Assembly: GCF_020991065.1 (NCBI RefSeq)
Contig: NZ_CP087710.1
Location: 3,906,001 to 3,970,000 of the forward strand
Reading direction: 5' to 3'
Origin: Nocardioides okcheonensis
GTDB lineage: Bacteria > Actinomycetota > Actinomycetes > Propionibacteriales > Nocardioidaceae
DNA length: 64,000 bases
Notes under the pieces: model-generated
Database searches by the model: none
What the model saw: the letters and a program-made list of their open reading frames with translations, nothing else
Told to the model about the DNA's origin: nothing
Shown: positions 42,917-61,889 of the stretch, piece after piece
Numbering within the stretch: the first letter of the stretch is position 1
Layout: each line of letters starts with the position of its first letter
Made by a program: the position numbers and the translations under genes

Positions 42917-42928
42917 CGGGTCAGGCGC
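42909..42928. terminator. symmetric hairpin over two convergent stops
   Basis: GCGCCTGA and TCAGGCGC form a perfect eight-base-pair stem with a CGGG loop, spanning the stop codons of the acyltransferase (ends 42916) and the minus-strand DUF1116 gene (ends 42921). It is likely a bidirectional terminator. Confidence 0.55.
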
Positions 42929-44342
42929 GCGCCGCCCGTGCGGCGTCGGCGAGCGCGGCGAGGGCCTGCGGGAAGATCTCGGCCGGCGGCGTGACCAGCC
43001 CGGCACCGACCTGGCCCACCCCGGCGACCGCGCCGGCCATGCCGGTGTTGATCTGCGGCAGGATCCCCGTACGGCACACCTTGGTCACGTCGATGCCGGT
43101 GGGCGTGCCCTGGAACTCCAGGACCGGCACCGACCAGCGCGGGTTCTCCGCGAGGGTGATCTCGTGCATCCGGCGGGTGGTGGCCAGTGCGTCGGGGACG
43201 GTGCCGCCGACGAGGCGCACGATGGCGGGGGCGGTGGCCATCGCGAAGCCGCCGATGCCGGCGGTCTCGGTGATCGCGGAGTCGCCGATGTCGGGGTTGG
43301 CGTCGTCCGGGCCGTAGTCGCCGAGGAACAGGCCCTCGGCGACCTGCGCCGGGCCGGTGAACCACTGGTCGCCGGTGCCGGAGACCTGGATGCCGAACTC
43401 GGTGCCGTTGCGCGCCATCGCCACGACCATGGTCGAGCCGGGGACGTCGCGGCCCGCGTCGAGGGCGAGCTTGCAGGCCGGCATCGCGAGGTTGAGGAAG
43501 AAGTGGTCGTTGCCGCCGACGAAGCGCAGCGCGTCCGCGACGTCCTTGGCGTCGAAGCCGGACGTGACCATCGCGGGGGAGAGGTCGCGCACCAGCATCA
43601 GGGTGCCGGCGCGGTTGCGGTTGTGCGCCTCGTCGCCCATCTGCAGCATCTGGGTGAGGATGCCGGTGATGTCGGAGGCCTCCGCGGTCCCGCGGACGGC
43701 CGCCTGCAGCAGCGGGCCGAGGACGTCGCCCATCCAGCGCAGCCGGGTCAGCACCTCGTCGTTGTAGGCGCCGTAGCGCAGCACCTTGCCGAGGCCCTCG
43801 TTGAGCGAGCAGTACGTCCGGCGGCCGGTGGCGCGGTCCTCGAGGACCCACATCCACATCGACGGCGTGACCACGCCCGCCATCGGGCCGACGGCGCTGC
43901 GGTGGTGGCACGGCTCGAGGCTGACGCTGCTGCCCGACTCGAACAGCGCGACGGCGTCCTCGGGGTCGTCGACGAGGCCCTCGAGGGCGGCGCCGCCCAT
44001 CAGCGCGCCGCGCAGCGGGCCGGAGGCCTGCTCCCACGCGATCGGCGGGCCGGCGTGCAGGAACTGGCCCCGCTCGAGGCCGAGGACCTCCGAGGCGGGG
44101 GCGACGTCGACGAGGTGGGCGGTCACGCCCAGCATCGCCTCGACGGCACGGCGGTTGGCCTCCGGGCGGCGCGGGTCGGTCGCGACGGCGGCGAGGTCGG
44201 CCTCGGTGCCCGGCATCGGCGGGCGCCAGTCGACGCGCTCGACGTCGACGGCCTGGCCGGCGACGGCGTCGGCGAACATGTCGGCGCCGCAGGCGACGAC
44301 CTCGGGGCTCGTGGCGCCGAGGGTGACGACGGTGGGGGTCAT
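42921..44342 (-). CDS. DUF1116 protein, YlbE/AllG-like carbamoyltransferase subunit
   Basis: 473 residues. Family features include VDWRPPMPG near residue 40, RTYCSLNEGLGKVLRYGA, GTLMLVRDLSP, GGNDHFFLNLAMPACKLA, MARNGTEFGIQVSGTGDQWF and VPVLEFQGTPTGIDV. This is the DUF1116 family (E. coli YlbE), which with FdrA and YlbF makes the oxamate carbamoyltransferase that phosphorolyses oxalurate in allantoin degradation. The ATG overlaps the FdrA stop (ATGA). It is the last gene of the three-gene arm. The substrate here need not be oxalurate; see findings. Confidence 0.85.
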   Translation of the reverse strand: MTPTVVTLGATSPEVVACGADMFADAVAGQAVDVERVDWRPPMPGTEADLAAVATDPRRPEANRRAVEAMLGVTAHLVDVAPASEVLGLERGQFLHAGPPIAWEQASGPLRGALMGGAALEGLVDDPEDAVALFESGSSVSLEPCHHRSAVGPMAGVVTPSMWMWVLEDRATGRRTYCSLNEGLGKVLRYGAYNDEVLTRLRWMGDVLGPLLQAAVRGTAEASDITGILTQMLQMGDEAHNRNRAGTLMLVRDLSPAMVTSGFDAKDVADALRFVGGNDHFFLNLAMPACKLALDAGRDVPGSTMVVAMARNGTEFGIQVSGTGDQWFTGPAQVAEGLFLGDYGPDDANPDIGDSAITETAGIGGFAMATAPAIVRLVGGTVPDALATTRRMHEITLAENPRWSVPVLEFQGTPTGIDVTKVCRTGILPQINTGMAGAVAGVGQVGAGLVTPPAEIFPQALAALADAARAARA

Positions 44343-45835
44343 GCGCGGGCTCCTTCGAGCAGCTGGAGGGCGCGGCGGGTGGCCGCGGCGTTGGACAGGT
44401 GCACCTCGGCGCCGGCGGCGACCAGGGCGTCGCGCTGGGCGTCGAGGCCCTGCGGGTCGAGGTCGGTGCCGACCAGGCTGACGATGACCGGCACCGGCCG
44501 CGCGCTGCGGGCCTCGCGGATGGCGGGAGCCAGCATCGCGGCCGGGTCGGGCTCGGCGCCGTGGCCGAGCACCAGGTCGAGCAGGATGACGCCGGTCTGC
44601 GGGTCGGCGGCGGCGCGGGCGAGCTGCTCGTTGCGCAGCGTCGGGTCGATCATCGGGTGCGCGCGGCCCTGGGTGAGCGCGTCGTCGCCGAAGTCGATCA
44701 TCGTGTGGGTGTCGGTGAGCAGGTCGCCCGGCTCGGTGGAGTCGAGGCCGAGGTCGTCCGACAGCGGGATGTTGCTGCGGACCGGCCCGAGCACCTCGGT
44801 GGCCATCAGCATCGACTCGTCGCACAGCGTGCCGCCGACGAACAGCCCGCGCAGCAGCGGACCGGTCGCCGCACCGGTGTTGTCCTCGCCCGCGACCGGC
44901 CACTGCGGCGCCTCGTGCCCGAGCCGGGCCAGCACGGCCTCGGCGACGGTGGTGAGGTCGCGCTGGCCGCGACCGAGCAGGCCGAGCTCGACCGGGGTGC
45001 CCAGCGCTTCGGCGTCCTTCGCCAGCGCCTCGGCGACCTCGGGGGCCGGGGGCTTGGACACCACGACCACGAGGTCGACGTCGGGGTCGGAGTCGAGGCG
45101 GCGCAGCGCCTCGCGCGTCGAGAGCCCGCCGACGGCGGCCGACAGGTCGCGCCCGCCCACGCCGAGCGCGTGCCGCACGCCCACGCCGTCGATCCCGGCA
45201 CCGGCGTGGTGGAGGAGGACGAGGAGCTGCTGGCAGCCGGTGCCGGAGGCGGCCACGATGCCGATGCGGCCCGGGCGGGTGGTGTTGGCGAAGCCGAGCC
45301 CGACGCCGTCGATCACCGCGGTGCCGCAGTCCGGCCCCATGACGAGCGCGCCGCGGGAGGCGGCGTACGTCTTGAGCGCGACCTCCTCCTCGACCGGCAC
45401 GTTGTCGCTGAAGACCATCACGTCGCGGCCCGCCTCGACGGCGTCCATCGCCTCGACGGTCGCGCTGGCGCCGGGCACCGACACGAGCGCCACCGCGTCG
45501 GGGCCGGTGCGGCGCAGGGCGGAGCCGGTGGTGCGCGGCGGCGCGACCTCGCTGGCCCCCGACGCGGGACGGGCCGGGACGAGGGCGGCGTCGACCGCGG
45601 CCAGCGCGGTGGCGACGTCGGCGTCGTCGTCGAGGCGCAGCGCCACGACCATGTCGTTGGGGGAGGAGGCCGGCACGTCGAAGCCCATGCCGGCGAGCAC
45701 CTCGAGGTTGAGCCCGGTGGCCATCGCGACCTGGGCGGCGACCACCCCCGGGGCCGCCTGGACGGCACGACTCACCTGCAGCAGCGTCACGGAGTCGGCG
45801 TAGGCGCCGCTCCTCAGCTCGACGTGGTCCTTCAT
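44339..45835 (-). CDS. fdrA: FdrA-like (AllF) acyl-CoA synthetase-fold protein
   Basis: 498 residues from ATG 45835, with AAGGAG upstream. The N-terminus (about 1-110) is an ACT-like domain (VELRSGAYADSVTLLQVSR); the central part has the succinyl-CoA-synthetase-like fold with RIGIVAASGTGCQQ, RHALGVGGRDLSAAVGG, PDVDLVVVVSKPP and FVGGTLCDESM. This architecture is FdrA, the large subunit of oxamate carbamoyltransferase. With DUF1116 and DUF2877 subunits it would split an N-carbamoyl amide with phosphate to give carbamoyl phosphate, which yields ATP if a carbamate kinase is available. No such kinase is encoded in this window. Confidence 0.88.
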   Translation of the reverse strand: MKDHVELRSGAYADSVTLLQVSRAVQAAPGVVAAQVAMATGLNLEVLAGMGFDVPASSPNDMVVALRLDDDADVATALAAVDAALVPARPASGASEVAPPRTTGSALRRTGPDAVALVSVPGASATVEAMDAVEAGRDVMVFSDNVPVEEEVALKTYAASRGALVMGPDCGTAVIDGVGLGFANTTRPGRIGIVAASGTGCQQLLVLLHHAGAGIDGVGVRHALGVGGRDLSAAVGGLSTREALRRLDSDPDVDLVVVVSKPPAPEVAEALAKDAEALGTPVELGLLGRGQRDLTTVAEAVLARLGHEAPQWPVAGEDNTGAATGPLLRGLFVGGTLCDESMLMATEVLGPVRSNIPLSDDLGLDSTEPGDLLTDTHTMIDFGDDALTQGRAHPMIDPTLRNEQLARAAADPQTGVILLDLVLGHGAEPDPAAMLAPAIREARSARPVPVIVSLVGTDLDPQGLDAQRDALVAAGAEVHLSNAAATRRALQLLEGARA

Positions 45836-45885
45836 CGGCACTCCTTCGGGGAGATCGTGTGCGGGGGGTGTGGTGGGGACGGGTG

Positions 45886-46662
45886 TCACGCCGCGGTGGT
45901 GCCGCGGTCGCGCAGGGAGGCGAGGGCGAGGCCGGCGCCGGTCGCGAGACCGGCACCGGAGGTGGCGCCGACGTCGAGCAGGGCCGCGAGCGTGCCGGGG
46001 CCGGGAGCGGCGAGCCAGTGGGCGAGCTGGGGCAGGGCCTCGCCGTGCAGGGCGCAGTCGAGGAGGGTGCCGGAGAGCAGCGTGGTGACGGCGAGGCGGC
46101 GGCGGACCGCGCCGGAGACCGCGACGTCCTCGCGCCCGGCGGCCGCGCGGACCACCAGCCAGCCCGCGAGCACGTCGTCGCCCAGCGGCGTCAGGCCGGG
46201 GCCGCGCCCGAGCAGGGCCTCGACGTGGGCCGGGGTCAGCCGGCCGTCGACCGGCAGGTCGAGGTCGTGGCCGGTGACGACCCGGCGGGCCGGGTCGGTG
46301 ACCGGCACGTCGTCGGGCAGCGTGGTGACGCGGGTGTCGACGACGCGGGCGATGCCCAGGCGGCGACCGGCGACGACGAGCCCGCCGCCCTCGACGCGCG
46401 CCGTGACCGCGTCGGGACGGCGCGAGGCCACCTGGCCGGAGAGCGCGGACAGGTCGTCGAGGGAGGACCACAGCGCGTTCGGGACGCGGCTCGCCTTCGC
46501 CGACACCAGGCCGAGGCACCAGCCGTCGACGTCGACGTAGACCGCGGAGCCGCTGGCGTGGACCACCTCGAGGGGGCCGTCGGGGACCGCGGACAGGTGC
46601 ACCAGGACGCGGGCGGGCGCCGCCACCGGGAGGGGGGTGGAGACCGAGCCGGCGAACATCAC
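45886..46662 (-). CDS. DUF2877 protein, YlbF/AllH-like carbamoyltransferase subunit
   Basis: 258 residues from GTG 46662. TAGCGT lies seven bases before this codon, giving a leaderless start; a longer frame to 46689 would overlap the palindromic operator. GRGPGLTPLGDDVLAGWL is the DUF2877 signature, followed by LSGTLLDCALHGEALPQL. In E. coli the equivalent YlbF is the third subunit of oxamate carbamoyltransferase. First gene of the minus-strand arm, divergent from the pucR-like regulator. Confidence 0.85.
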   Translation of the reverse strand: MMFAGSVSTPLPVAAPARVLVHLSAVPDGPLEVVHASGSAVYVDVDGWCLGLVSAKASRVPNALWSSLDDLSALSGQVASRRPDAVTARVEGGGLVVAGRRLGIARVVDTRVTTLPDDVPVTDPARRVVTGHDLDLPVDGRLTPAHVEALLGRGPGLTPLGDDVLAGWLVVRAAAGREDVAVSGAVRRRLAVTTLLSGTLLDCALHGEALPQLAHWLAAPGPGTLAALLDVGATSGAGLATGAGLALASLRDRGTTAA

Positions 46663-46686
46663 CGGACAGACGCTAACGGCTCGTGG

Positions 46687-46702
46687 CACACTCGCGAATG
46701 TG
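46687..46702. promoter_or_regulatory. candidate PucR operator palindrome
   Basis: CACACTCGCGAATGTG is a 14-of-16 palindrome (CACA-N-TCGCGA-N-TGTG) between the divergent DUF2877 and PucR genes. It lies about 12 bases upstream of the DUF2877 -10 hexamer and 26 bases before the pucR GTG, so it covers both promoters. The TGTG/CACA half-sites recur before the permease gene at 49267-49314. Confidence 0.5.
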
Positions 46703-46727: not shown

Positions 46728-47996
46728 GTGGGCCAAGACTTGATAAGCGACCCGGAGGCCGTCGCCGCGCTGGAGCGGGCGGACGCGCTGCACACCGCCC
46801 TCACGCACATCGTGCTGGAGGGCGGTGACCTCGCGGCCATCGCCGAGGCCGTGGGCGACGCGCTCGGCTGCGGCGTCGCGTTCACCTCGACCGACGGGCG
46901 CGAGCGCGCCGCCCACCTCGGCGACGGGGACCGGGCGGCGCTGGCCAGCGCGGGACTGCTCGACCCCACCGGTCGGGTGCGCGTCGAGCGGATCGACCCG
47001 GGCGGGACGGCCGTGGGCGAGGGGCAGGCGCTGCTGCGCCGGGTCGTCGCCGCCGGCGTCGACCTCGCGCGGCTGGTGGCGCTGCGCACGGACGGCACGA
47101 TCCACTCCTCCGACGTGCACGCGCTCGAGCGCGCGGCGATCGTGGCGGCCCTGCTGGTGACCCGCGTCGAGGCGATCACGGCCGTCGAGAACAAGTACCA
47201 GGGCGACTTCCTGCGCGACGTGTTCCTCGGGCGCGCGGGCGAGGAGGACTACGTCGCCGAGCACGCGCAGGCGTTCGGCTGGGTGCTCGACCGACCCGTC
47301 GTGGTCGTCGTCGCCGTGCTCGACCCCGACGCGCTCGCCGCCCAGGGCGCCGCCGACGACCGCCGCGCGTGGCACGACCGGTTCGCCCAGGCGTGGCGGC
47401 AGGTCGCGGTGGGTGCCGACCCGACGGTCGCGTCGGTCGCCTTCAGCCGCGAGGTGGTCACGCTCGTGCCGGTCGACCCCGACGCCGGGCCGGCGGCCGC
47501 GCGGGCCGCGGTGGACCGGATGATCGAGGGGGTGCGCGGCGACCGCGGTGGCGGGCGGATCTCGTTCTCCGCCGGTGTCAGCCGCGTCGCCCGCGACGTC
47601 GGTGAGCTGCCCGAGGCGTTCCGCCAGGCGCAGCGCTCGGTCGAGATCGGTCGACGGGTGCACGGCGGCGGCTCGGTGACCCGCTTCGACCAGCTCGGCC
47701 TGCACCGCCTGCTGGCGCTGGTGCCGGACAGCGCCGAGCTGTCGGCCTTCGCCGCCGACGTGCTCGGCCCGCTCGCCGAGCGGACGCCGGAGGCCGCCGA
47801 CCTGCGCGAGACCCTGCAGGTGCTGCTCGACACGAACTTCAACGTGGCCGAGGCCGCGCGGGCGCAGTTCTTCCACTACAACACCATGCGCTACCGCGTC
47901 GGCAAGCTGCAGCGGATCCTCGGCCCCGTCGCCTCCGACCCGCACCTGCGCCTCGACGTCGCCGTCGCGCTGCGGGCGCTGGAGATCGCGGAGTGA
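46728..47996 (+). CDS. PucR family transcriptional regulator
   Basis: 422 residues from GTG 46728 with AAGGA upstream. N-terminal GAF-like sensing region (about 10-140), a central GGDEF-like CdaR domain (RISFSAGVSRVARDVGELPEAFRQAQRSVEIG), and the C-terminal PucR helix-turn-helix (NFNVAEAARAQFFHYNTMRYRVGKLQRILG). PucR proteins control purine, allantoin, pyrimidine or amino-acid catabolism in response to intermediates. It sits between the two arms of the catabolic island and is the obvious regulator of both. Followed by a repeat pair, not by another gene. Confidence 0.9.
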   Translation: MGQDLISDPEAVAALERADALHTALTHIVLEGGDLAAIAEAVGDALGCGVAFTSTDGRERAAHLGDGDRAALASAGLLDPTGRVRVERIDPGGTAVGEGQALLRRVVAAGVDLARLVALRTDGTIHSSDVHALERAAIVAALLVTRVEAITAVENKYQGDFLRDVFLGRAGEEDYVAEHAQAFGWVLDRPVVVVVAVLDPDALAAQGAADDRRAWHDRFAQAWRQVAVGADPTVASVAFSREVVTLVPVDPDAGPAAARAAVDRMIEGVRGDRGGGRISFSAGVSRVARDVGELPEAFRQAQRSVEIGRRVHGGGSVTRFDQLGLHRLLALVPDSAELSAFAADVLGPLAERTPEAADLRETLQVLLDTNFNVAEAARAQFFHYNTMRYRVGKLQRILGPVASDPHLRLDVAVALRALEIAE

Positions 47997-49346: not shown

Positions 49347-50771
49347 ATGTCGATGTTCAAGTGGGACGTGGTCGATCCCGCTCCCGGCGAGGCGGTGCTC
49401 CCGCACCAGCGGCTGCCGTGGGGCAAGACGATCGGGCTCGGCGCCCAGCACGTGGTCGCCATGTTCGGCGCCACCTTCGTGTTCCCCCTCGTCATGGGGC
49501 TCGACGCCAACCTGGCGATCATGTTCTCGGGCCTGTGCACGATCCTGTTCCTGCTCATCGTCCAGAACCGCGTGCCGAGCTACCTCGGCACCAGCGCGTC
49601 GTTCGTGGCGTCCGTCGCGGCGATCCGCGCCCTCGACTCGGGCAACGACTCCTCCTACGTCACCGGCGCGATCCTCGTCGGCGGCCTCGTGCTCGCCGCG
49701 GTCGGCGTGCTGGTCCACTTCGCCGGCGCCCAGCTGATCCACCGCCTGCTGCCGCCCGCCGTCACCGGCGCGGTCGTCATGCTGATCGGCTTCAACCTGG
49801 CCCCGGTCGTGGCGGGCGTCTACTGGCCCCAGGACCAGTGGATCGCGCTGCTCACCGCGGCCTTCATGGTCTTCGCGTCCGTCGCGCTGCCCGGCTTCTG
49901 GTCGCGGATCGCGGTCTTCCTGGCGCTGATCTTCGGCTACGTCCTGTCCTTCGTGGCCGACAAGGTGTTCGGCCCGATCACCTCCGTCCTCGGCGGCGCC
50001 ACCGAGGCCACCGAGCACGACCGCGTCTCCTGGGCCGGCGTCCAGGCGGCCGACTGGATCGGGCTCCCGAGCGGCACCCTCGCGGACGGCGTCTCCGTCG
50101 TGCACGCCCCGTCGTTCTCGCTGACCGCGATCCTCCTCGTCCTGCCCGGCGTCATCGCGCTCGTCGCGGAGAACACCGGCCACGTCAAGGCCGTCGCGGA
50201 GATGACCGGGGAGAACCTCGACCCCTACATGGGCCGCGCCATCGGTGCCGACGGCATCGCCACCGCCTTCGCCAGCGCGTTCGGCGGCTCGCCCACGACG
50301 ACCTACGCCGAGAACATCGGCGTCATGGGCGCCACCCGCGTCTACTCGTCCGCCGCCTACTACGTCGCCGCGCTCGTGGCGATCCTGCTGGGCCTGTGCC
50401 CGAAGTTCGGCGCCATCGTCAACGCCACCCCCGGAGGCGTCCTCGGCGGCATCACGGTGGTCCTCTACGGGATGATCGGACTGGTGGGTGCGAAGATCTG
50501 GGTGGAGAACGGCATCGACTTCGGCAACCCGGTCAACATGGTCGGCCTGGCCGCCGGCCTGATCGCCGGCATCGGCGGCGTCACGCTCACCTTCGGCGAC
50601 GACTTCGAGCTCGGCGGCATCGCCCTCGGCACGATCCTGGTCATCGCCTTCTTCCACATGGTCAAGGGCCGCGGGGGGCACGGTGCCGGCACCGTGACCC
50701 GCAACCTGAGCCACCCCGACTACGACGGCGGCGTCGACGACGCGGCCTCTGGAGGCACCACCACCCGATGA
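49347..50771 (+). CDS. NCS2 nucleobase permease, pyrimidine (UraA/RutG)-like
   Basis: 474 residues, about 12-14 membrane segments. Conserved NCS2 features: QHVVAMFGATFVFPLVMG, ENTGHVKAVAEMTG and the signature GGSPTTTYAENIGVMGATRVYS. The ENIG form with TTTYAEN is that of uracil-type members, whereas xanthine and urate permeases carry QNNG. Import of uracil, thymine or a related ring by proton symport is therefore more likely than of a purine. CTGGAGG precedes the ATG. First gene of a six-gene operon; its stop overlaps the next ATG. Confidence 0.88.
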   Translation: MSMFKWDVVDPAPGEAVLPHQRLPWGKTIGLGAQHVVAMFGATFVFPLVMGLDANLAIMFSGLCTILFLLIVQNRVPSYLGTSASFVASVAAIRALDSGNDSSYVTGAILVGGLVLAAVGVLVHFAGAQLIHRLLPPAVTGAVVMLIGFNLAPVVAGVYWPQDQWIALLTAAFMVFASVALPGFWSRIAVFLALIFGYVLSFVADKVFGPITSVLGGATEATEHDRVSWAGVQAADWIGLPSGTLADGVSVVHAPSFSLTAILLVLPGVIALVAENTGHVKAVAEMTGENLDPYMGRAIGADGIATAFASAFGGSPTTTYAENIGVMGATRVYSSAAYYVAALVAILLGLCPKFGAIVNATPGGVLGGITVVLYGMIGLVGAKIWVENGIDFGNPVNMVGLAAGLIAGIGGVTLTFGDDFELGGIALGTILVIAFFHMVKGRGGHGAGTVTRNLSHPDYDGGVDDAASGGTTTR

Positions 50772-51634
50772 AGCCCGCACCCTTCGCCTACCTGCGACCG
50801 ACCGGTCTCGAGGAAGCCCTCGCGGCCCTCGCGAAGGAGCCGGGGGCGAAGGTGCTGGCCGGCGGTCAGTCCCTGGTCCCGCTGCTCTCCATGCGGCTGG
50901 CCGCGCCCTCGATGCTCATCGACATCAACGCCCTGCCGGACCTCGGCCACGTCACCGCCTCCCGCGAGGGGGACGGGGCCGGGGTCCGGGTCGGGGCCCT
51001 CGCCCGGCACGCCCACGTGCTCGCCGACACCGCGGCGGGCGAGGTCCAGCCGCTGCTCGCGCTGGCCCTGTCCCACGTCGCGCACCCGACGATCCGCAAC
51101 CGCGGCACCACCGTCGGCTCGCTGGTGCACGCCGACGCTGCCGCCGAGATGCCGATGGTGCTGCGCCTGCTGGAGGGCTCGGTCGACGTCGCGTCGGTGC
51201 GCGGACGTCGTACGATCCCGGCCGCCGAGCTCTTCGCCGGCCCGCTCGAGTCGACGCTGGCCCACGACGAGATCGCCGTCGAGGCGTTCTTCCCGGCCCT
51301 GCCCGCCACCGCGGGCGTGGCCTTCCAGGAGATCGCCCGCCGCCACGGCGACTACGCCCTCGTCGGGGTGGCCGCGGTCGTCGAGCTCGACGGCGACACC
51401 GTCGCCCGGGCCCGGATGGGCTTCGTGTCGGTCAGTGACGTGCCGGTCGTCGTCGACGTCACCGACGCCCTCGACGACCCCGCCGCGAAGGCGCTGGCCG
51501 AGCTCGAGCCGGCCGAGGACATCCATGCGACCGCCGCCTACCGCGCGCACCTGGTGAAGGTGCTCGCCCCCCGTGTCCTGGCGGCCGCGACCGACCACGC
51601 CCGCACCCGGGCAGGAGAGGTGACCCCCGCATGA
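50768..51634 (+). CDS. molybdenum hydroxylase, FAD-binding subunit
   Basis: 288 residues, normal for the medium (CoxM/XdhB) subunit. AGGQSLVPLLSMRLA and HPTIRNRGTTVGSLVHADAAAEMP are the two FAD-binding motifs of the CO-dehydrogenase/xanthine-dehydrogenase medium chain. It passes electrons from the iron-sulfur subunit to the final acceptor. ATG overlaps the permease stop and the end overlaps the next ATG. Confidence 0.93.
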   Translation: MKPAPFAYLRPTGLEEALAALAKEPGAKVLAGGQSLVPLLSMRLAAPSMLIDINALPDLGHVTASREGDGAGVRVGALARHAHVLADTAAGEVQPLLALALSHVAHPTIRNRGTTVGSLVHADAAAEMPMVLRLLEGSVDVASVRGRRTIPAAELFAGPLESTLAHDEIAVEAFFPALPATAGVAFQEIARRHGDYALVGVAAVVELDGDTVARARMGFVSVSDVPVVVDVTDALDDPAAKALAELEPAEDIHATAAYRAHLVKVLAPRVLAAATDHARTRAGEVTPA

Positions 51635-52155: not shown

Positions 52156-54539
52156 CCACCAAGCTCTTCGGCACCAAGGTCGCCCGCGTCGAGGACCAGC
52201 GCTTCCTGCGCGGCCAGGGGCGCTACGTCGACGACCTGCTCACCGACGACCCGCGGCTGCTCCACTCCGCCGTGCTGCGCTCGCCGCACGCCCACGCCCG
52301 GATCGTCGACATCGACGTCTCCGGCGTGCTCGACGTCGAGGGCGTCGTCGCGGTCTGGACGTGGGACGACCTCACCGACGCGATGGCCGAGCCGCTGCCG
52401 CTGCTGATCCCGCACCCGACGCTGACCCACGGCCGCACCCAGTACGCCCTGGCGAAGGACGAGGTCAACTACGTCGGCGAGGCGATCGCCTTCGTCGTCG
52501 CCGTCGACCGCTACGTCGCCGAGGACGCCGTGTCGCGGATCCGCGTCGACTACGAGCACCTCCCGCCGGTCGTGGGCATCGCCGCGGCGCGGGCCGCCGA
52601 GCGGACCGTCCACGACGACGTGCCCGACAACGTCGCGGCGCGGATGGAGCAGGAGAACGGCGACGCCCGCGCGGCCATCGCCGCCGCCCCGCACACGCTC
52701 CACCTCGACCTCGACATCGAGCGCTCGGCCTGCACGCCGATGGAGGGCCGCGGCACCGTCGCGCGCTGGGACCCCGACACCAGCCGGCTGACCGTGTGGT
52801 CGTCGACCCAGACCTCCACCGGCGTCCGCGGCTGCGTGGCCGCCAAGCTCGGCCTCGACCTGGTCCAGGTCGACGTCGTCACCCCCGACGTGGGCGGCGG
52901 CTTCGGCGTCAAGGTGGTCCACCCGTGGCCGGAGGAGCTGCTGGTCCCGCTCGCCGCGAAGACCCTCGGCCGGCCGGTGAAGTTCACCGAGGACCGGCGC
53001 GAGCACTTCATCTCCTCCGCGCACGAGCGCGCCCAGCAGCACGTGGTCGACGTCGGCTTCGACGACGACGGTCGGGTCCTCGGGCTCAACGTGGAGTTCT
53101 GGCACGACCACGGCGCCTACACGCCGTACGGCCTGATCGTCCCGATCATCACCTCCACGCAGCTGCTCGGCCCCTACAAGCCGCAGAGCTACCGCGTGGT
53201 CTTCGAGTCGCTCTACACCAACACGGTCATCGTCACCCCCTACCGCGGGGCCGGGCGGCCGCAGGGCTGCTTCGTGATGGAGCGGACGATGGACGCGATC
53301 GCCGCCTACCTCGGCAAGGACCGCACCGAGGTCCGCAGCGCCAACTTCATCCAGCCCGACGAGTTCCCCTACGAGCACGGCCTGGTCTTCCAGGACGGGC
53401 GCGAGCTGACCTACGACTCCGGCGACTACCCGGCGTCGCTGACCAAGCTCAAGGAGCTGGTCGGCTGGGACGAGTTCGAGGACTTCCGCGCCGAGATGGC
53501 CGCCCAGGGCCGCCGGGTCGGCATCGGCCTGGCCTGCTACGTCGAGGGCACCGGCGTCGGCCCCTACGAGGGCGCCCACGTGCACGTCGAGACCTCCGGC
53601 AAGGTCAAGGTCGCCACCGGCCTCACCACCCAGGGCCAGGGCCACCAGACGGCGTTCGCGCAGATCGTCGCCGACACCCTCGGCGTGCGGTTCGAGGACG
53701 TCGAGATCACCACCGGCGACACCCGCAAGATGCCCTACGCGGTCGGCACCTTCGCGTCGCGGGCCGCGGTGATGAGCGGCTCGGCGATCCACCTCGCCGC
53801 GCTGCGCGCCAAGGAGAAGGCGCTGCGGATCGCCGCCGAGGCGCTGGAGGCCGACGAGGCCGACCTCGAGATCGTCGACGGCGTGGTGTCGGTGAAGGGC
53901 ACCGACGCGACCATCGACCTCGGCACCGTCGCGGTGCTGTCCAACCCGCTGCGCTACGCCTTCGACGAGGCGTCCAAGGCCGCCACGCAGTTCTCCGTCG
54001 GCGACCCCGGCAAGCCGCCGGTCGCCGAGGACGACGAGCCGGGCCTGGAGGGCAAGGACTTCTACTCCCCGCCGCGCTCCACCTTCGCCAACGGCATGCA
54101 CGCCGTGATCGTGGAGACCGACCCCGACACCGCCGAGATCACCATCCTCAAGTACGCCGTCGTCCACGACTGCGGCCACCTGATCAACCCGATGATCGTC
54201 GAGGGCCAGATCCACGGCGGCGTCGCGCAGGGCGTGGGCGGCGCGCTCTACGAGCGGATGGCCTATGACGAGTCGGGCCAGCTGCTCAACGCGTCGTTCA
54301 TGGACTTCCTCATGCCCTACGTCACCGAGGTGCCGACCACGATCGACATCGACCACCTCGAGACGCCGTCGCCGCTCAACCCGCTCGGCATCAAGGGCGC
54401 GGGCGAGGCGGGCGTGATCCCGTCGGCCGCCGTCTTCGCCGCCGCGATCGAGGACGCCGAGGGCTTCCCGATCACCGCCATGCCCATCTCGCCGTCCGAG
54501 CTGTTCGAGCTGCGCCTCGAGCACGCCGACACCCCCTGA
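52152..54539 (+). CDS. molybdenum hydroxylase, large molybdopterin subunit
   Basis: 795 residues from GTG 52152. Starts with VARVEDQRFLRGQGRYVDD, then GGGFGVKVVHPWPEE, the loop YRGAGRPQG (Tyr364-Gly372) and catalytic glutamate Glu752 in GIKGAGEAGVIPS. The AYxCSFR active-site loop with the cysteine of true CO dehydrogenase (form I CoxL) is absent, so this is a form II-type hydroxylase that adds water-derived oxygen to a carbon of an aldehyde or N-heterocycle. Neighbouring permease, amidase and hydantoinase point to a pyrimidine, hydantoin or purine ring. A perfect inverted repeat lies 55 bases after the stop. Confidence 0.93.
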   Translation: MTTKLFGTKVARVEDQRFLRGQGRYVDDLLTDDPRLLHSAVLRSPHAHARIVDIDVSGVLDVEGVVAVWTWDDLTDAMAEPLPLLIPHPTLTHGRTQYALAKDEVNYVGEAIAFVVAVDRYVAEDAVSRIRVDYEHLPPVVGIAAARAAERTVHDDVPDNVAARMEQENGDARAAIAAAPHTLHLDLDIERSACTPMEGRGTVARWDPDTSRLTVWSSTQTSTGVRGCVAAKLGLDLVQVDVVTPDVGGGFGVKVVHPWPEELLVPLAAKTLGRPVKFTEDRREHFISSAHERAQQHVVDVGFDDDGRVLGLNVEFWHDHGAYTPYGLIVPIITSTQLLGPYKPQSYRVVFESLYTNTVIVTPYRGAGRPQGCFVMERTMDAIAAYLGKDRTEVRSANFIQPDEFPYEHGLVFQDGRELTYDSGDYPASLTKLKELVGWDEFEDFRAEMAAQGRRVGIGLACYVEGTGVGPYEGAHVHVETSGKVKVATGLTTQGQGHQTAFAQIVADTLGVRFEDVEITTGDTRKMPYAVGTFASRAAVMSGSAIHLAALRAKEKALRIAAEALEADEADLEIVDGVVSVKGTDATIDLGTVAVLSNPLRYAFDEASKAATQFSVGDPGKPPVAEDDEPGLEGKDFYSPPRSTFANGMHAVIVETDPDTAEITILKYAVVHDCGHLINPMIVEGQIHGGVAQGVGGALYERMAYDESGQLLNASFMDFLMPYVTEVPTTIDIDHLETPSPLNPLGIKGAGEAGVIPSAAVFAAAIEDAEGFPITAMPISPSELFELRLEHADTP

Positions 54540-54682: not shown

Positions 54683-55324
54683 GTGAAGTTCACCGGAGAG
54701 AACGTCCTGAACGCCCCCGTCGAGAAGGCGTGGGACGCCCTGCTCGACCCCGCCGTGCTCGTGCGCACCATCCCGGGCTGCGAGAAGCTCGAGGCGACCG
54801 GCGAGAACGCCTACGCCATGACGGTCACCGCGGGCGTCGCGTCGATCAAGGGCACCTACGCCGGCTCGTGCCAGCTCGGCGACCTCGAGCAGCACGAGTC
54901 GCTGGTCATGAAGCTCGACGGCGCGGGCGCGCCCGGCACCATCGGCGCGACGGTCCACGTGCGCTTCACCCCCGAGGGCGACACCACCCGGGTCTCCTAC
55001 GACGCCGACGCGACCGTCGGCGGGATGATCGGCGGCGTCGGGCAGCGGATGCTGACCAGCGTCTCGCGGCGGATGGCGGGCGAGTTCTTCGGCAACGTCG
55101 ACGCGGCGATCGCCGGCGGTCCGGTCACCGCGACCGTCACCGCCCCCGCCGGTGCGACGGTCGAGCCCGGTGCGCCCGCCCCGGCCGGCGCCGTCTTCAC
55201 CGCCCCGGCCAAGGCGTCGTCGCCGGTCGGCTCCCAGCAGGACTTCCTCACCGGCGTCGCCGTCGGCGCGGGCCTGGTCCTGCTCGGCGCCGTGGTCGGC
55301 GGCCTGCTCGGTCGTCGCCGATGA
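54683..55324 (+). CDS. CoxG-like SRPBCC protein with C-terminal membrane anchor
   Basis: 213 residues from GTG 54683, GAGGAG upstream. The first 150 residues are a carbon-monoxide-dehydrogenase subunit G (CoxG/SRPBCC) domain: APVEKAWDALLDPAVLVRTIPGCEKLE, VASIKGTYAGS, MLTSVSRRMAGEFF. A Pro/Ala-rich linker leads to a single C-terminal membrane segment (FLTGVAVGAGLVLLGAVVGGLLG) ending in RRR. CoxG anchors Mo hydroxylases to the membrane, so the enzyme probably feeds electrons to the respiratory chain. The stop overlaps the amidase ATG. Confidence 0.92.
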   Translation: MKFTGENVLNAPVEKAWDALLDPAVLVRTIPGCEKLEATGENAYAMTVTAGVASIKGTYAGSCQLGDLEQHESLVMKLDGAGAPGTIGATVHVRFTPEGDTTRVSYDADATVGGMIGGVGQRMLTSVSRRMAGEFFGNVDAAIAGGPVTATVTAPAGATVEPGAPAPAGAVFTAPAKASSPVGSQQDFLTGVAVGAGLVLLGAVVGGLLGRRR

Positions 55325-56712
55325 CCGACGTCACCGTCGACTCCACGGCCCGCGACCAGGCCGCGGCGGTCCGGTCGGGGGCGATCTCGGCCGCGGAGCT
55401 GCTCGAGCTGCACCTCGACCGGATCGAGGAGCGCAACCCCGAGCTCAACGCGATCGTGTCGCTCGACGCCGAGCGCGCGCGGTCGGCTGCCGCCGTCGCT
55501 GACCAGGCGCAGGCGTCGGGGGAGCTGACCGGTCCGCTGCACGGGCTGCCGTTCGCCGTGAAGGACACCCACGCGCTCGAGGGGTGGCCGCACACGTTCG
55601 GCTCGCCGGTCTTCCGCGACCACGTCGCCGACCACGACGAGCTGCTCGTCGAGCGCGTACGCCGTGCGGGCGCGGTCTTCGTCGGCAAGACCAACGTGCC
55701 GGAGTTCGCCGCCGGCTCGCACACCTTCAACACCGTCTTCGGCGTCACCCGCAACCCGGTCGACCCCTCGCGGTCCGCGGGCGGCTCCAGCGGGGGAGCG
55801 GCCTGCGCGCTCGCGGCCGGCATGGTGCCGCTGGCCGACGGCTCCGACATGGGCGGCTCGCTGCGCAACCCGGCGTCGTTCTGCGGCGTGGTCGGGATGC
55901 GGCCCTCGCTCGGGCGGGTGCCGGAGTGGCCGCTCTACAACCAGTGGGAGACCACGTCGGTGGGCGGCCCGATGGCCCGCAACGTCGGCGACCTTGCCCT
56001 GCTGCTCTCCGTGCTCGCCGGCCCCGACCCGCGCGCCCCGCTCGCGCTCGGCGACCCGGGCTCGTCCTTCGCGCCGCCGCTGGACCCCGCCCCGCTCGCC
56101 GGGCTGCGGGTCGCGGCGTCGGTGGACCTCGGCGGCGCCTTCGCGGTCGACCACGCGGTCGCCGACGTCGTACGCGCCACCGCCGCGCGGCTCTCCGACG
56201 CGGGCGCCGCGGTGGGCGACGCGCACCCCGACCTGTCGCTCGCCGACGACACCTTCCGCACCCTGCGGGCGTGGCACTTCCAGGCCAAGCTCGGCCGGCT
56301 GCTCGCCGAGCACCCGACGTCGTTCAAGCCGTCGCTGGAGGCCAACATCCGCGCCGGTGAGCCGCTCACCGGCGCCGACGTGGCCCGCGGCTACGCCCAG
56401 CGCACCGCGCTCTCGGAGACGATGCGGCTGTTCTTCGGCGACCACGACGTGCTGCTGCTCCCGACCTCGCAGGTCCCGCCGTTCCCGGCTGACCAGGAGT
56501 TCCCGGCGACGATCAACGGCCAGGGGATGCCCGACTACCTCGCGTGGATGCGCTCGGCCTACTTCATCTCCGTCACCGGCTGCCCGGCCATCTCGGTCCC
56601 GGCCGGCACGACGCCCGACGGCCTCCCGGTGGGCGTCCAGCTGGTCGCCCGCCACGGCGCCGACCGCCGGCTGCTCGAGGTCGCCGCGGCGGTCGAGGAG
56701 CTGCTCGGCTGA
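55321..56712 (+). CDS. amidase (amidase signature family)
   Basis: 463 residues, typical AS-family length. Catalytic triad visible: Lys81 in AVKDTHALEG, cis-Ser in AGGSSGGAACALAAG (156-157) and nucleophile Ser180 in DMGGSLRNPASFCG. It hydrolyses a linear amide or carbamoyl amide. In the context of a ring hydroxylase and hydantoinase it could act on a ring-opened ureido acid or on an amide such as malonamate or oxamate. ATG overlaps the coxG stop; last gene of the operon starting at 49347. AtzF/ureidomalonase-type and GatA-type members share these motifs, so the substrate is uncertain. Confidence 0.9.
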   Translation: MTDVTVDSTARDQAAAVRSGAISAAELLELHLDRIEERNPELNAIVSLDAERARSAAAVADQAQASGELTGPLHGLPFAVKDTHALEGWPHTFGSPVFRDHVADHDELLVERVRRAGAVFVGKTNVPEFAAGSHTFNTVFGVTRNPVDPSRSAGGSSGGAACALAAGMVPLADGSDMGGSLRNPASFCGVVGMRPSLGRVPEWPLYNQWETTSVGGPMARNVGDLALLLSVLAGPDPRAPLALGDPGSSFAPPLDPAPLAGLRVAASVDLGGAFAVDHAVADVVRATAARLSDAGAAVGDAHPDLSLADDTFRTLRAWHFQAKLGRLLAEHPTSFKPSLEANIRAGEPLTGADVARGYAQRTALSETMRLFFGDHDVLLLPTSQVPPFPADQEFPATINGQGMPDYLAWMRSAYFISVTGCPAISVPAGTTPDGLPVGVQLVARHGADRRLLEVAAAVEELLG

Positions 56713-57783: not shown

Positions 57784-59883
57784 ATGAGCAACCGGCGGAT
57801 CAGGATCGGCATCGACACCGGAGGCACGTTCACCGACGTGGTCGCCTTCGACGAGGACTCGGGGGAGCTGGTCACGACCAAGACCCCCTCGACGCCCGGC
57901 AACCCGGCCGACGGGTTCATCGCCGGCATCGAGAAGATCCTCGGGATCGTCGGCGCCGCGGGCGAGGACATCACCGCGGTCTCCCACGGCACCACGGTCG
58001 CCACCAACAAGCTCCTCGAGGGCAAGGTCGAGGCGCTCGGCTTCATCACCACCGAGGGCTACGAGTTCATGCTCGAGATCGCCCGCCAGTCGGTGCCCGA
58101 CGGCTACGGCAACTCCTACTTCTGGGTCAAGCCCGACCGGATCGTCCCGGCCGACCGCGTCCGCACCGTCGGCGGCCGGCTCGACTTCACCGGCGCCGAG
58201 GTCCGCCCGTTCGACGAGGAGTCCGCGGTCGCCGCGGCCCGGTGGTTCCGCGACCGCGGCATCACCACCATCGGCGTGTGCCTGCTCCACGCCTACGCCA
58301 ACGACGAGCACGAGCTGCGGCTGCGCGAGATCCTGCGCCGCGAGCACCCCGAGGCCGTCGTGTCGATCTCGAGCGAGGTGCTGCGCGAGTACCGCGAGTA
58401 CGAGCGGTCGATGACCACGCTGGTCGACGCGGCCGTCAAGCCCAACGTCAGCCGCTACGTGAACAACATCTCCGAGCGCCTGGTGGGGTTCACCGGCAAC
58501 GAGATCCCGTTCTACGTCATGAAGTCCAACGGTGGCGTGCTGTCGGCCGACGAGGTCGTCCACCAACCCATCACGACCGTGCTCTCCGGCCCGGCCGCCG
58601 GCGCCCTCGGCGCCGCGCTGATCGCCAAGGTCGCCGGCTTCCCGAAGATCCTCACGTGCGACGGCGGCGGCACCTCGACGGACGTGTCCGTCGTCCTCGA
58701 CGGCGAGCCGACCCTCACCACCGAGGGCACCGTCGGGGCGTACCCGAGCAAGATCCCGATGATCGACGTGGTCACCGTGGGGGCCGGCGGCGGCTCGATC
58801 GCCTGGCTCTCGCCCGAGGGCACCCTCAAGGTCGGGCCGCACTCGGCCGGCGCCGACCCCGGCCCGCTCTGCTACGCCAAGGGCGGCACCCAGCCGACGA
58901 TCACCGACGCCCACGTGACGCTCGGCCGGATCCCTCCCCACCTGCTGGGCGGGGAGATCCCGCTCGACGTCGACGCGGCGCGCGCCGGCATCGCCGACCT
59001 CGCGGGCAAGCTCGGCGTCGACTTCGAGCGCTGCGCGACGGGCATCCTCGAGATCTCCGCCTGGAACCAGGCCAACGCGCTGCGCCAGGTCAGCGTGAAG
59101 CGCGGCCTCGACGTGCGCGACTTCATGCTGACGACCTTCGGCGGCTCCGGCTCGCTGCTGGCCTGCCGCCTGGTCGACATCCTCGACCTCGCCGGCGTCG
59201 TCGTGCCGCCCAACCCGGGCAACGTCAGCGCCTTCGGCCTGCTGACCGTCGACGTGAAGAACGACTACGTCCAGACCCACGTCGCCAAGGAGTCCGCGCT
59301 GGACCACGCGGCCGTGCAGGGCATCCTCGACGACCTCACCGACCGGGCCCGCGAGGCGCTCGCCAAGGAGGGCTTCACGCCCGAGCAGCACCGCTTCCAG
59401 CGCACCATCGACGTGCGCTACGTCGGCCAGGCCTTCGAGGTCCGCGTCGCCGCCCCTGAGGCCAGCGACGGGCAGAGCGTCGACGCGGCCTACGTCGCGC
59501 AGGTCGCCGACACCTTCCACGCCGAGCACCGCCAGCTCTACGGCTACGACTTCCGCGGCGACGCCACCCAGCAGGTCGAGTGGGTCAACCTCCGCGTGAC
59601 CGGCATCGGCCCGATCACCCGCCCGGAGATCCCGACCCTCGACAAGGCCGACGGCAGCGTCGAGGAGCGCGCGGTGCGCGGTCGCCGTCCGGTCTGCTTC
59701 GACGCCGACCACGGCTACGTCGACACACCCGTCATCTGGCGCGGCGACCTCGGCGCGGGGGACACGTTCAGCGGTCCCGCCATCGTCGAGGAGTTCGGCT
59801 CCACCATCCCCGTCCACCCCGGCTTCGAGGTCGTGGTCGACGACTGGGCCAACCTCGTGATCCGGAAGGAGTCGGGCCGATGA
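57784..59883 (+). CDS. hyuA: hydantoinase/oxoprolinase A-type subunit
   Basis: 699 residues, full length. IRIGIDTGGTFTDVVAFD is the actin-like ATP phosphate loop; SHGTTVATNKLLEG, LSGPAAGALGA, CDGGGTSTDVS and GSIAWLSPEG follow, all typical of HyuA/HydA of ATP-dependent cyclic amide hydrolases (N-methylhydantoin amidohydrolase, 5-oxoprolinase, caprolactamase). TTGAAT seven bases before the ATG suggests a leaderless mRNA. It needs HyuB, whose ATG overlaps its stop. In this island it probably opens an oxidised ring with ATP. Confidence 0.92.
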   Translation: MSNRRIRIGIDTGGTFTDVVAFDEDSGELVTTKTPSTPGNPADGFIAGIEKILGIVGAAGEDITAVSHGTTVATNKLLEGKVEALGFITTEGYEFMLEIARQSVPDGYGNSYFWVKPDRIVPADRVRTVGGRLDFTGAEVRPFDEESAVAAARWFRDRGITTIGVCLLHAYANDEHELRLREILRREHPEAVVSISSEVLREYREYERSMTTLVDAAVKPNVSRYVNNISERLVGFTGNEIPFYVMKSNGGVLSADEVVHQPITTVLSGPAAGALGAALIAKVAGFPKILTCDGGGTSTDVSVVLDGEPTLTTEGTVGAYPSKIPMIDVVTVGAGGGSIAWLSPEGTLKVGPHSAGADPGPLCYAKGGTQPTITDAHVTLGRIPPHLLGGEIPLDVDAARAGIADLAGKLGVDFERCATGILEISAWNQANALRQVSVKRGLDVRDFMLTTFGGSGSLLACRLVDILDLAGVVVPPNPGNVSAFGLLTVDVKNDYVQTHVAKESALDHAAVQGILDDLTDRAREALAKEGFTPEQHRFQRTIDVRYVGQAFEVRVAAPEASDGQSVDAAYVAQVADTFHAEHRQLYGYDFRGDATQQVEWVNLRVTGIGPITRPEIPTLDKADGSVEERAVRGRRPVCFDADHGYVDTPVIWRGDLGAGDTFSGPAIVEEFGSTIPVHPGFEVVVDDWANLVIRKESGR

Positions 59884-61889
59884 CCACCCTGAGCACCGAC
59901 GTCAGCACCCGCCCCGTCGACCCCGCCTACGTCACCGCGAAGCCGGTCAACCCGGCCGGCCTGCCCACGGCGTACTCCCACGGTGGACGCCTCACCGCCG
60001 AGGGCTCGAGCGTCGACCCGATCCTCGTCGAGATCGTCCAGGGCACCCTGGCCAGCGTCGAGATGGAGGTCGAGACCGCGATCGGTCGCACCAGCCGCTC
60101 GCCGATGATCCGCGACGCCCACGACTTCCGCGCCGGCATCCACGACCGCCAGCTGCGCAAGCTCACGGGTCGCTCCTACAGCGCGCTCGTGCACCCCATC
60201 GTGCGCGACTTCCCGCTGGAGGAGATGCGCGAGGGCGACGTCTTCTTCCACAACGACGTCTACGAGTCGGAGGGCGGCATCGGCCACCTGCCCGACCTCT
60301 GCGTCACCGTGCCGGTCTTCCACCAGGGCGAGGTCGTGGCGTTCGTGCAGGCCTTCGGCCACCACGACGACATCGGCGGCGCCTGCCCGGGCTCGATGCC
60401 CAGCGGCGCGACGACGGTGTACGAGGAGGGCTTGGCCGTCCCGCCGATCAAGCTGTGGGACGCCGGCGTCCCCAACAAGGCCGCGCTGCGGATCATGACC
60501 CGCAACTCGCGGATGCCCGACAGCCTCGCCGCCGACCTCGACGCCGAGTGCTCCGCCTGCCTGATGGGCGCGCGCCGGCTCAGCGAGCTCTTCGAGCGCT
60601 ACGGCCGCGAGGCGATCGAGACGTCGTTCGACGCGATCCTCGACGCCACGACCGAGACCTACCGCCGCGAGATCCTGTCCAAGATCCCCGACGGCACCTA
60701 CGTCTGGGAGGACTACGCCGAGCACGACGGCGTCGACGACCCCCAGCTGCACACCCAGCGGATCACCCTGACCAAGGTCAGCGACGCCCCGGCCGACCCC
60801 GAGAACGGCCGCCCCGCCGGACCCCGGCTGATCATCGACTTCACCGGCACCAGCGCGCAGGCCAAGGGCCCGATCAACCACTGCGGCGACTACGTGGGTG
60901 GCAACTTCCTCAAGAAGTGGCTCGCACCGATCCTGCGCAACCTCGCCGACACCCCGGAGCGGATGGCCGAGCTCGACGTCAACGAGGGCATCGTGCCGCT
61001 CATCGAGATGCGCTTCCCCGAGAAGGGCACGCTGCTCACGCCGATCCACCCCGGCCCGACCAACGCCCGCACCTTCGTCATCCTGCGCCTGCTCGGCGTG
61101 CTCGCGGGCGTGGTCGCCAAGGCGGTCGACGGCAAGATGCCCGCCGACCAGGAGACCATCCGCTACACCGGCGTCTACGGCAAGGACCTCGAGGGCAACG
61201 ACTACCTCATGCGCGAGGTCCTCGGCGGCGGCTCCGGCGGTCGCTACTACGCCGACGGCGAGGACACGATCCACGTCGTGCCCGACTCCCGGAACCTGCC
61301 GACCGAGTTCACCGAGTCGCGCTTCCCGTTCATCGTCGAGCGCCTCGGCCTCGCCGTCGACTCCGGCGGCGCGGGCGAGTTCCGCGGCGGCCTGGGCTAC
61401 GAGAAGCAGATCCGGATGCTCAAGGACGCCCACTTCATGTCCATCGCCGACCGCTCGATCCTCGCCTGCTGGGGCGTGCGCGGCGGCAAGGCCGGCGCGC
61501 CGTTCCAGGTCGTCATCGACCCGGGCGGCCCCGACGAGCGCGAGGTCGACGCCCTCGCCGACGCCGAGGTGATCCGGGCCGGGCAGGTCGTGCGGATCCG
61601 CACCACCGGTGGCGGCGGCTGGGGCGACCCGCTCGCCCGCGACCCCGAGCTCGTCGTGCGCGACGTGGTGTGGGGCAAGGTCTCGGCCGAGGCGGCGCTG
61701 CGCGACTACGGCGTCGTGCTGACCGGTGCCCGGGAGAGCGACGACCTCGGCTTCGACGCCGACGCGACGAGCGCCGAGCGCGGCTCGCGGGCGGCGTGGA
61801 GCAAGGCCGACGACGCCTTCTTCGACCGCGGCCCGGGCTACGCCACCCTCGCCGCCGGCGCGGCGTCCGCCGAGGTCGACCGGGTCTGA
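59880..61889 (+). CDS. hyuB: hydantoinase B-type subunit
   Basis: 669 residues, about 40-60 longer at the N-terminus than most HyuB proteins. GDVFFHNDVYESEGGIGHLPDLCVTVP, FGHHDDIGGACPGSMP, DFTGTSAQAKGPINH and the C-terminal RTTGGGGWGDPLARDP are standard. It forms the hydrolytic complex with HyuA. The long, Pro-rich N-terminal tail (about 1-45) has no known function. The ATG overlaps the hyuA stop, and the next gene begins one base after its own stop. Confidence 0.92.
   Translation: MTTLSTDVSTRPVDPAYVTAKPVNPAGLPTAYSHGGRLTAEGSSVDPILVEIVQGTLASVEMEVETAIGRTSRSPMIRDAHDFRAGIHDRQLRKLTGRSYSALVHPIVRDFPLEEMREGDVFFHNDVYESEGGIGHLPDLCVTVPVFHQGEVVAFVQAFGHHDDIGGACPGSMPSGATTVYEEGLAVPPIKLWDAGVPNKAALRIMTRNSRMPDSLAADLDAECSACLMGARRLSELFERYGREAIETSFDAILDATTETYRREILSKIPDGTYVWEDYAEHDGVDDPQLHTQRITLTKVSDAPADPENGRPAGPRLIIDFTGTSAQAKGPINHCGDYVGGNFLKKWLAPILRNLADTPERMAELDVNEGIVPLIEMRFPEKGTLLTPIHPGPTNARTFVILRLLGVLAGVVAKAVDGKMPADQETIRYTGVYGKDLEGNDYLMREVLGGGSGGRYYADGEDTIHVVPDSRNLPTEFTESRFPFIVERLGLAVDSGGAGEFRGGLGYEKQIRMLKDAHFMSIADRSILACWGVRGGKAGAPFQVVIDPGGPDEREVDALADAEVIRAGQVVRIRTTGGGGWGDPLARDPELVVRDVVWGKVSAEAALRDYGVVLTGARESDDLGFDADATSAERGSRAAWSKADDAFFDRGPGYATLAAGAASAEVDRV

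Follow-up and report, generated by a model that had tools for sequence, protein, structure and literature searches.

What substrate could unite a carbamoyltransferase, a molybdenum hydroxylase, an amidase and a hydantoinase in one gene cluster? This question is raised by an island, with a widely conserved gene set, in the soil actinobacterium Nocardioides okcheonensis (contig NZ_CP087710.1), found in the analysed stretch of 64,000 nucleotides (positions 3,906,001 to 3,970,000 of the forward strand; hereafter the window). The island spans window positions 42921 to ~62571, and combines a carbamoyltransferase arm (allG, allF and allH) with a hydroxylase/amidase/hydantoinase arm (coxMSL, coxG, an amidase gene and hyuAB). 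The observed gene content, linkage and co-inheritance, the identity of a barbiturase and an active-site loop unlike that of CO dehydrogenases (CODHs) point to oxidative catabolism of uracil, perhaps also of thymine, by the island together with two genes a short distance beyond the window, for a barbiturase and a carbamate kinase. The probability of this reading is roughly 0.7, and its individual reactions are predictions.

The barbiturase and carbamate kinase genes lie beyond the window end (3970000), and so were not visible to the author of the initial annotation, which had been made from the window. An arcC-type carbamate kinase gene is located at C1:3974646-3975593 of the genome, 4.6 kb past the window end (TIGR00746 344 bits, cut-off 358; PRK12352 318 bits, cut-off 266). 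It is followed by a gene of the AtzD family at C1:3975645-3976751, 5.6 kb beyond the window. The AtzD-family protein matched the solved 'Barbiturase' of PDB 5hwe over the full length with 668 bits, compared with at most 310 bits for cyanuric acid hydrolases. PDB 5hwe is, we take it, the barbiturase from Rhodococcus erythropolis. When the family to which Rhodococcus sp. 1168 belongs was searched with the 5hwe sequence (201 genomes), 11 genomes gave a match, one of the matches being 100% identical (genome G512) and three 99% identical; the host barbiturase is 85% identical to the G512 copy. It carries the motifs VQTKTP and SMDLSN, whereas the cyanuric acid hydrolases in the alignment show VQ(V/I)KCP (VQIKAP in one chain) and an Arg. 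The Asn of SMDxSN is present in both the host protein and 5hwe, and Arg occupies this position in all four aligned cyanuric acid hydrolase chains. Among the loci, 51 distinct AtzD-family proteins had a readable core, and all 50 that were of the island type contained the T (VQTKTP) and the N (SMDxSN); C and R were found in L241 (36% identical). These results support the assignment of the AtzD-family protein as a putative barbiturase, the only enzyme of the proposed pathway that has a closely related characterised enzyme.

The carbamate kinase gene lies at most 220 bases from the barbiturase gene in 18 of 20 downstream loci (not in L224 and L231), all of which had been selected to reach the barbiturase. 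On four Nocardioides contigs (L121, L122, L124 and L146), HyuAB, carbamate kinase and barbiturase follow in a row. AtzD-family genes of about 46% identity also occur on plasmids of Citrobacter, Klebsiella, Enterobacter and others among the 20 matches listed (132 plasmid records with any match), and these are probably cyanuric acid hydrolases.

Co-occurrence was determined in 394 genomes drawn from the host's class, using four markers: AllG (PF06545), CoxL (NF040766, E <= 1e-200), HyuA orthologs (E <= 1e-170) and the AtzD/barbiturase family (PF09663). Raw PF06545 matches were detected in 88 genomes, 13 of which gave distant copies only (35-54% identity) and were removed before counting; AllG alone was rejected as a marker. 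PF09663 was found in 82 genomes, and five with distant members only were removed from the barbiturase count. Island-type AllG was then present in 75 genomes, CoxL in 77, the HyuA ortholog in 75 and barbiturase-type AtzD in 77, with all four markers in 71 and a union of 79. Barbiturase-type AtzD accompanied CoxL in 76/77 genomes and HyuA in 73/75, and AllG accompanied CoxL in 73/77. Pairwise Fisher p values among the markers ranged from 7e-72 to 1e-79, shared ancestry being ignored. A better control is the comparison within the host's own genus, where 12 of the 20 sampled genomes contained all four markers and the other eight none.

The initial annotation had named, as a check on its proposal that the arms belong together, whether they lie apart in nearly all related genomes. 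This was not so: of the 73 genomes with both AllG and CoxL, 65 carry them on one contig, and in 58 of these the distance is at most 15 kb. All four markers were on one contig in 47 genomes, and within 50 kb of each other in 38 of these. Genus g43 keeps all parts, but in 10 of its 12 genomes the AllFGH arm lies away from CoxL (seven at distances of 92 kb to 1.7 Mb, three on other contigs). Linkage and co-inheritance support the view that the two arms form one catabolic unit, as had been proposed.

Some assignments in this sample need comment. The island AllG copies grouped in a single clade separate from the remaining copies (100/97 support), a test that is partly circular because the island group had been defined by identity. 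Genome G051, dropped for its distant AllG, had an island-type CoxL, a barbiturase and an AllF stub on other contigs, so its AllG may have dropped out during assembly. Genome G023 was scored as barbiturase-positive on a fragment of 25 residues (29 bits), and G209 on two pieces. Gene families clustered by blastp mixed in shadow frames, and served as leads only. No island-type CoxL was found in the 15 fetched loci with distant AllG, one of which (L113) contained a 28% homolog. Six of the loci with distant AllG copies (L114-L119, 35-37% identical), from four actinobacterial families, share another conserved set of neighbours that lacks the island CoxL, and perhaps represent another AllG-based system.

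In the pathway proposed here, uracil would be imported by the permease and hydroxylated by CoxMSL at ring carbon 6, a C-H position adjacent to a ring nitrogen, to give barbiturate, with the electrons passing via the FeS and FAD centres towards the quinone pool, with CoxG. Barbiturase would open barbiturate to ureidomalonate. The latter would be phosphorolysed by AllFGH, an enzyme of the oxamate carbamoyltransferase type (OXTCase), to malonamate and carbamoyl phosphate, from which carbamate kinase would form ATP. The amidase, or a nitrilase-type enzyme in other lineages, would release malonate and ammonia from malonamate, and malonate could then be converted to acetyl-CoA in relatives that have a linked CoA-transferase and a fused carboxyltransferase. 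The sequence of uracil, barbiturate, ureidomalonate, and malonamate plus carbamoyl phosphate had been sketched in the initial annotation, and fits the evidence as a whole. A wider reading stands at about even odds: that the island conserves energy in aerobic uracil catabolism, that its form II 'CO dehydrogenase' is a uracil/thymine dehydrogenase, that ureidomalonate is a second natural substrate of AllFGH (yielding carbamoyl phosphate and ATP, not urea) with Rhodococcus-type loci being hydrolytic instead, and that HyuAB adds an ATP-driven ring opening.

The candidate for the first catalytic step is encoded on the plus strand by coxM (50768..51634, start refined; FAD subunit, PF00941 and PF03450), coxS (51631..52155; [2Fe-2S] subunit, PF00111 and PF01799) and coxL (52152..54539; molybdopterin subunit, MoCoBD_1/2). 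These are followed on the same strand by coxG (54683..55324; PF06240, 84 bits), an SRPBCC protein gene. The closest solved match of CoxL was quinoline 2-oxidoreductase, an enzyme that attacks the C-H carbon next to a ring nitrogen; the nearest named relatives of CoxL are from Nocardioides (82-86%). The active-site loop of CoxL reads PYRGAGR and is invariant in 16 aligned sequences, including that of the host. The motif (A/S)YRCS(F/L)R of form I CO dehydrogenases (PMC13240472; the PMC papers are cited here from the parts consulted) is absent from CoxL, and two solved CODHs among the matches listed have a Cys in the loop. As the activity of form II enzymes was called unresolved in the part of PMC13240472 consulted, CO oxidation by a CoxMSL with the PYRGAGR loop is not to be assumed. 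CoxG proteins tether such enzymes to the membrane or pass electrons to quinone (PMC11962113, PMC13240472), and the island CoxG is a probable membrane or quinone link of the hydroxylase.

The island enzyme resembles the form II 'aerobic CO dehydrogenases' of the NF040766 group in its three subunits and CoxG, and many relatives share XdhC/MobA/CoxD/CoxE-like maturation genes. It differs from aerobic CO dehydrogenases in that its CoxL lacks the form I CO motif, and in its almost constant association with barbiturase-type AtzD. These data make CoxMSL a candidate for the likely missing first enzyme of the oxidative uracil route, a predicted uracil/thymine dehydrogenase. Members of the model NF040766, 'aerobic carbon-monoxide dehydrogenase large subunit, group 5', score about 1500 bits although those aligned are without the form I CO motif, and many actinobacterial genomes probably carry misleading CO-dehydrogenase gene names.

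The oxidative uracil route has been known since the 1950s and was termed rare; the pyrimidine is converted to barbiturate, and barbiturase and ureidomalonase then give malonate and urea (PMC3758960). It was described for R. erythropolis JCM 3132 (Soong et al. 2001, 2002, via PMC3758960, PMC4051656 and PMC3961730), and strain CCM2595, which equals JCM 3132, uses pyrimidines (PMC3961730). The island shares with this route a barbiturase ortholog, a uracil-type permease and malonate as the expected carbon product. The JCM 3132 route frees urea by ureidomalonase hydrolysis, whereas AllFGH and carbamate kinase, present in the host lineage, would yield carbamoyl phosphate and ATP. The parts consulted of PMC3758960, PMC4051656 and PMC3961730 assign no gene to ureidomalonase.

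The carbamoyltransferase is encoded by three adjacent genes on the minus strand: allG (42921..44342, start refined; YlbE/DUF1116-type, 473 aa; PF06545, 316 bits), allF (44339..45835; FdrA-type, 498 aa; PF00549; NF004760, 367 bits, below the cut-off of 433) and allH (45886..46689; YlbF/DUF2877-type, 267 aa; PF11392, 58.4 bits, cut-off 25). AllF, AllG and AllH are 39% (over 493 aa), 46% (410 aa) and 35% (115 aa only) identical to FdrA, YlbE and YlbF of E. coli, and the carbamate kinase, which belongs to the same gene cluster, is 42% identical to that of E. coli. The E. coli OXTCase splits oxalurate into oxamate and carbamoyl phosphate, and enteric bacteria are split between OXTCase and urease (PMC11326118); in nitrifiers, allFGHK together with biuret genes forms another setting of the same enzyme (PMC12625717). 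The island differs from the E. coli system in several respects. In E. coli allC, allD and allE are neighbours, but none of these allantoin genes was present among the open reading frames scanned with Pfam in window positions 32936-63953, the rest of the genome not having been searched. Here the setting is of an aerobic type, with a molybdenum hydroxylase and a barbiturase, and the carbamate kinase gene is not adjacent to allH but ~22 kb from it, beside the barbiturase gene. The proposed substrate, ureidomalonate, is one carbon longer than oxalurate.

AllFGH looks like the variable step of the pathway. In a sister genus, all eight Rhodococcus-type loci had, in this order, the genes for a CoA-transferase, AccDA, barbiturase, amidase, PucR, a further amidase, XdhC, a second PucR and a permease, and CoxL was found in seven of these eight genomes. 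None of the eight fetched stretches gave a match to AllG, AllF or carbamate kinase; for Rhodococcus sp. 1168 (L137, one of the eight) AllG was absent from the genome as well, the other seven having been checked in the fetched stretch only. In the Rhodococcus sp. 1168 family, genome G500, whose barbiturase is 99% identical to 5hwe, carries NmrA-HyuB-HyuA-CoxG-CoxL-CoxS-CoxM-permease, an amidase and the barbiturase in one stretch of 17.5 kb, again with no AllG, AllF or carbamate kinase match therein. The same CoxMSL and HyuAB lie here beside a barbiturase of the R. erythropolis type, and in G512 CoxL is 6.3 kb from the barbiturase. Loci of the Rhodococcus type that share the front end (CoxMSL, permease, HyuAB and barbiturase), have extra amidases and show no AllFGH in the stretch are what would be expected if AllFGH and carbamate kinase replace a hydrolytic ureidomalonase; it is proposed that an amidase serves as ureidomalonase in these loci. 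One of the 11 barbiturase-containing genomes of this family (G446) has a carbamate kinase gene beside the barbiturase gene (L279), indicating that the family is mixed.

The host amidase gene (55321..56712, plus strand; AS family, PF01425 350 bits; PRK07486 458 bits, cut-off 465) encodes a candidate malonamate (malonic monoamide) hydrolase. A nitrilase-family protein takes its place in many relatives from other families, and this exchange at one position fits a single amide-cleaving step with exchangeable enzymes. Many relatives also carry genes for a CaiB-type CoA-transferase and a fused AccD-AccA protein beside the barbiturase gene. The fused protein is related to acetyl-CoA carboxylase and more weakly to malonate decarboxylase subunits, and the linked pair would suit malonate. 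AccDA was located within 12 kb of barbiturase or HyuA on the same contig in 16 of 40 island genomes (positions compared by eye). RutA, of the rival uracil route, was found in none of the 40 island genomes and in 2/40 controls, and is too rare to be informative. In one family (L080, L082 and L083) the amidase/nitrilase gene is followed by a cytosine-deaminase-like amidohydrolase gene (e.g. L083, 16096-17328; subfamily score below cut-off), in keeping with a pyrimidine route.

The role of HyuAB is less clear. Genes hyuA (57784..59883; PF01968, PF05378 and PF19278) and hyuB (59880..61889, start refined; PF02538, 442 bits), both on the plus strand, encode proteins with the two subunits and the domains of the N-methylhydantoinase/caprolactamase/5-oxoprolinase family, but score far below its equivalog cut-offs (for CapA, 504 bits against 1000). 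The nearest solved relative of HyuA is N-methylhydantoinase (484 bits), and 5-oxoprolinase is also among the solved relatives. The initial annotation had given HyuAB the task of opening barbiturate with ATP. Such a main role, with the barbiturase gene serving another step or as a back-up, is improbable but is the best of the alternatives. In its favour, HyuAB follows CoxMSL-CoxG in Rhodococcus-type loci and belongs to the same gene run in the window, and genome G266, although without barbiturase, has kept HyuAB together with CoxMSL. It is opposed by the dedicated barbiturase of the same island, 85% identical to the solved enzyme and with barbiturase-type counterparts in nearly all HyuA genomes, and by genome G206, which has CoxL and barbiturase without HyuA. 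Barbiturase works without ATP, and we know of no pyrimidine route with an ATP-driven ring opening. A marine alphaproteobacterial contig (L142) also bears on this alternative, having HyuA-HyuB-CoxM-CoxS-CoxL followed by a BMP-type ABC transporter (4594-12397 and 17850-22368), with no barbiturase match in its 22 kb and no AllG found in its genome bin; a reduced or different HyuAB-hydroxylase route is possible there. With the barbiturase as main ring opener, it may be guessed that HyuAB opens a second, harder ring from the same hydroxylase (5-methylbarbiturate from thymine), or acts as a barbiturase back-up.

Less probable still is a purine or hydantoin-type ring as substrate of the hydroxylase and HyuAB, with AllFGH acting on oxalurate as in E. 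coli. This parabanate/oxalurate branch, offered in the initial annotation beside the barbiturate one, draws on the proven action of E. coli AllFGH on oxalurate (PMC11326118, part consulted) and on the solved relatives of HyuA. N-methylhydantoinase and 5-oxoprolinase, which are among these relatives, open five-membered rings, and PucR-type regulators are known from purine control. The branch is disfavoured because the linked ring opener has the residues of barbiturase, whose substrate has no five-membered ring, and because the acyl-CoA gene pair linked in many relatives would suit malonate. Furthermore, no urate, allantoin or ureidoglycolate genes were among the Pfam-scanned reading frames of positions 32936-63953, the only part of the genome searched for them.

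Degradation of cyanuric acid or biuret-type triazine products by the AtzD-family enzyme is very unlikely. The enzyme does pass the model threshold set by NCBI for cyanuric acid amidohydrolases, but its residues and its best solved match are those of barbiturase, and the two enzymes share no substrates (PMC4051656, in the part consulted). Moreover, cyanuric acid has no ring C-H open to attack by a molybdenum hydroxylase. Least likely of all is that CoxMSL is a real aerobic CO dehydrogenase with unrelated carbamoyl genes as passengers, as the CoxL match to the NF040766 model of that name ('CODH_aero_grp5', 1521 bits, cut-off 950) and the adjacent CoxG would suggest, since the loop lacks the Cys of the solved CODHs and CO oxidation would not predict co-occurrence with barbiturase and AllG.

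Several observations weigh against oxidative uracil catabolism as the function of the island. Two complete genomes have partial sets: CoxL and HyuA are present and barbiturase and AllG absent in G266, and CoxL and barbiturase are present and HyuA and AllG absent in G206, indicating that the gene set can be divided. A distance of 0.5 Mb separates barbiturase from CoxL in G592. A Gln is given for the barbiturase subgroup at the position of the Arg (PMC4051656), where the host and 5hwe have Asn, and with 465 bits the barbiturase exceeds the cut-off (360) of the NCBIfam cyanuric acid amidohydrolase model. HyuAB, although inherited just as tightly as the other markers, has no necessary step in the scheme. 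An AccDA-type carboxyltransferase (E <= 1e-80) was detected in 32/40 island genomes and also in 8/40 controls, and in the host genome the CaiB-AccDA pair is unlinked, with AccDA relatives at 2.43 and 1.61 Mb. Finally, the permease, AllF, the amidase and HyuAB scored below the cut-offs of the nearest NCBIfam equivalogs or subfamilies, so that their names apply at the family level.

In the searchable literature, which excludes most subscription papers and all preprints and so does not prove novelty, no gene was found for the first step of the oxidative uracil route or for ureidomalonase, and none of the papers listed assigned the genes of the island. The island offers candidate genes for the uracil oxidation step and for a step that replaces ureidomalonase, and a barbiturase-type gene occurs in about 20% of the sampled class genomes (77/394). 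If the proposed pathway is true, it would assign a function to a family listed by NCBI as CO dehydrogenase, a name that may distort surveys of CO oxidation. AllFGH with carbamate kinase would then be an energy-saving later step, in which the ring carbamoyl group is recovered as ATP and not lost as urea, and this suggests a general role for AllFGH in carbamoyl recovery, beyond allantoin breakdown.

All genes named in the initial annotation were present at 42921-61889 and matched the expected Pfam or NCBIfam families in both arms. As it had stated, the arms flank a PucR-family regulator gene (46728..47996, plus strand; PF13556 and PF17853), which is divergent from allH with a gap of 38 bases; allG, allF and allH are on the minus strand and the rest on the plus strand. 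The permease gene (49347..50771, plus strand) encodes an NCS2 nucleobase permease of the uracil type (PF00860, 225 bits; best NCBIfam match TIGR03616 RutG, 348 bits, below the cut-off of 759). Overlaps of 4 bases (allF-allG, permease-coxM, coxM-coxS, coxS-coxL, coxG-amidase and hyuA-hyuB) indicate an operon-like arrangement. A GNAT acetyltransferase gene between pucR and the permease gene (48196-49308) looks like a passenger, because homologs were found in only 2 of 89 fetched loci (L084 and L088, near relatives). An open frame between the amidase gene and hyuA (57135-57698) matched no Pfam family and reads like a small membrane protein. Directly 3' of hyuB, a gene for an NmrA-like NAD(P)H-binding protein (61891..62571, plus strand, start approximate; PF13460/PF05368) was detected, which also follows hyuB in Nocardioides and Rhodococcus loci. 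Just before the island, genes for a DUF4129 protein and a MoxR-type AAA ATPase lie at 37839-40103; in relatives a CoxD-like ATPase is encoded beside allG, but the two ATPases probably fall into different MoxR groups.

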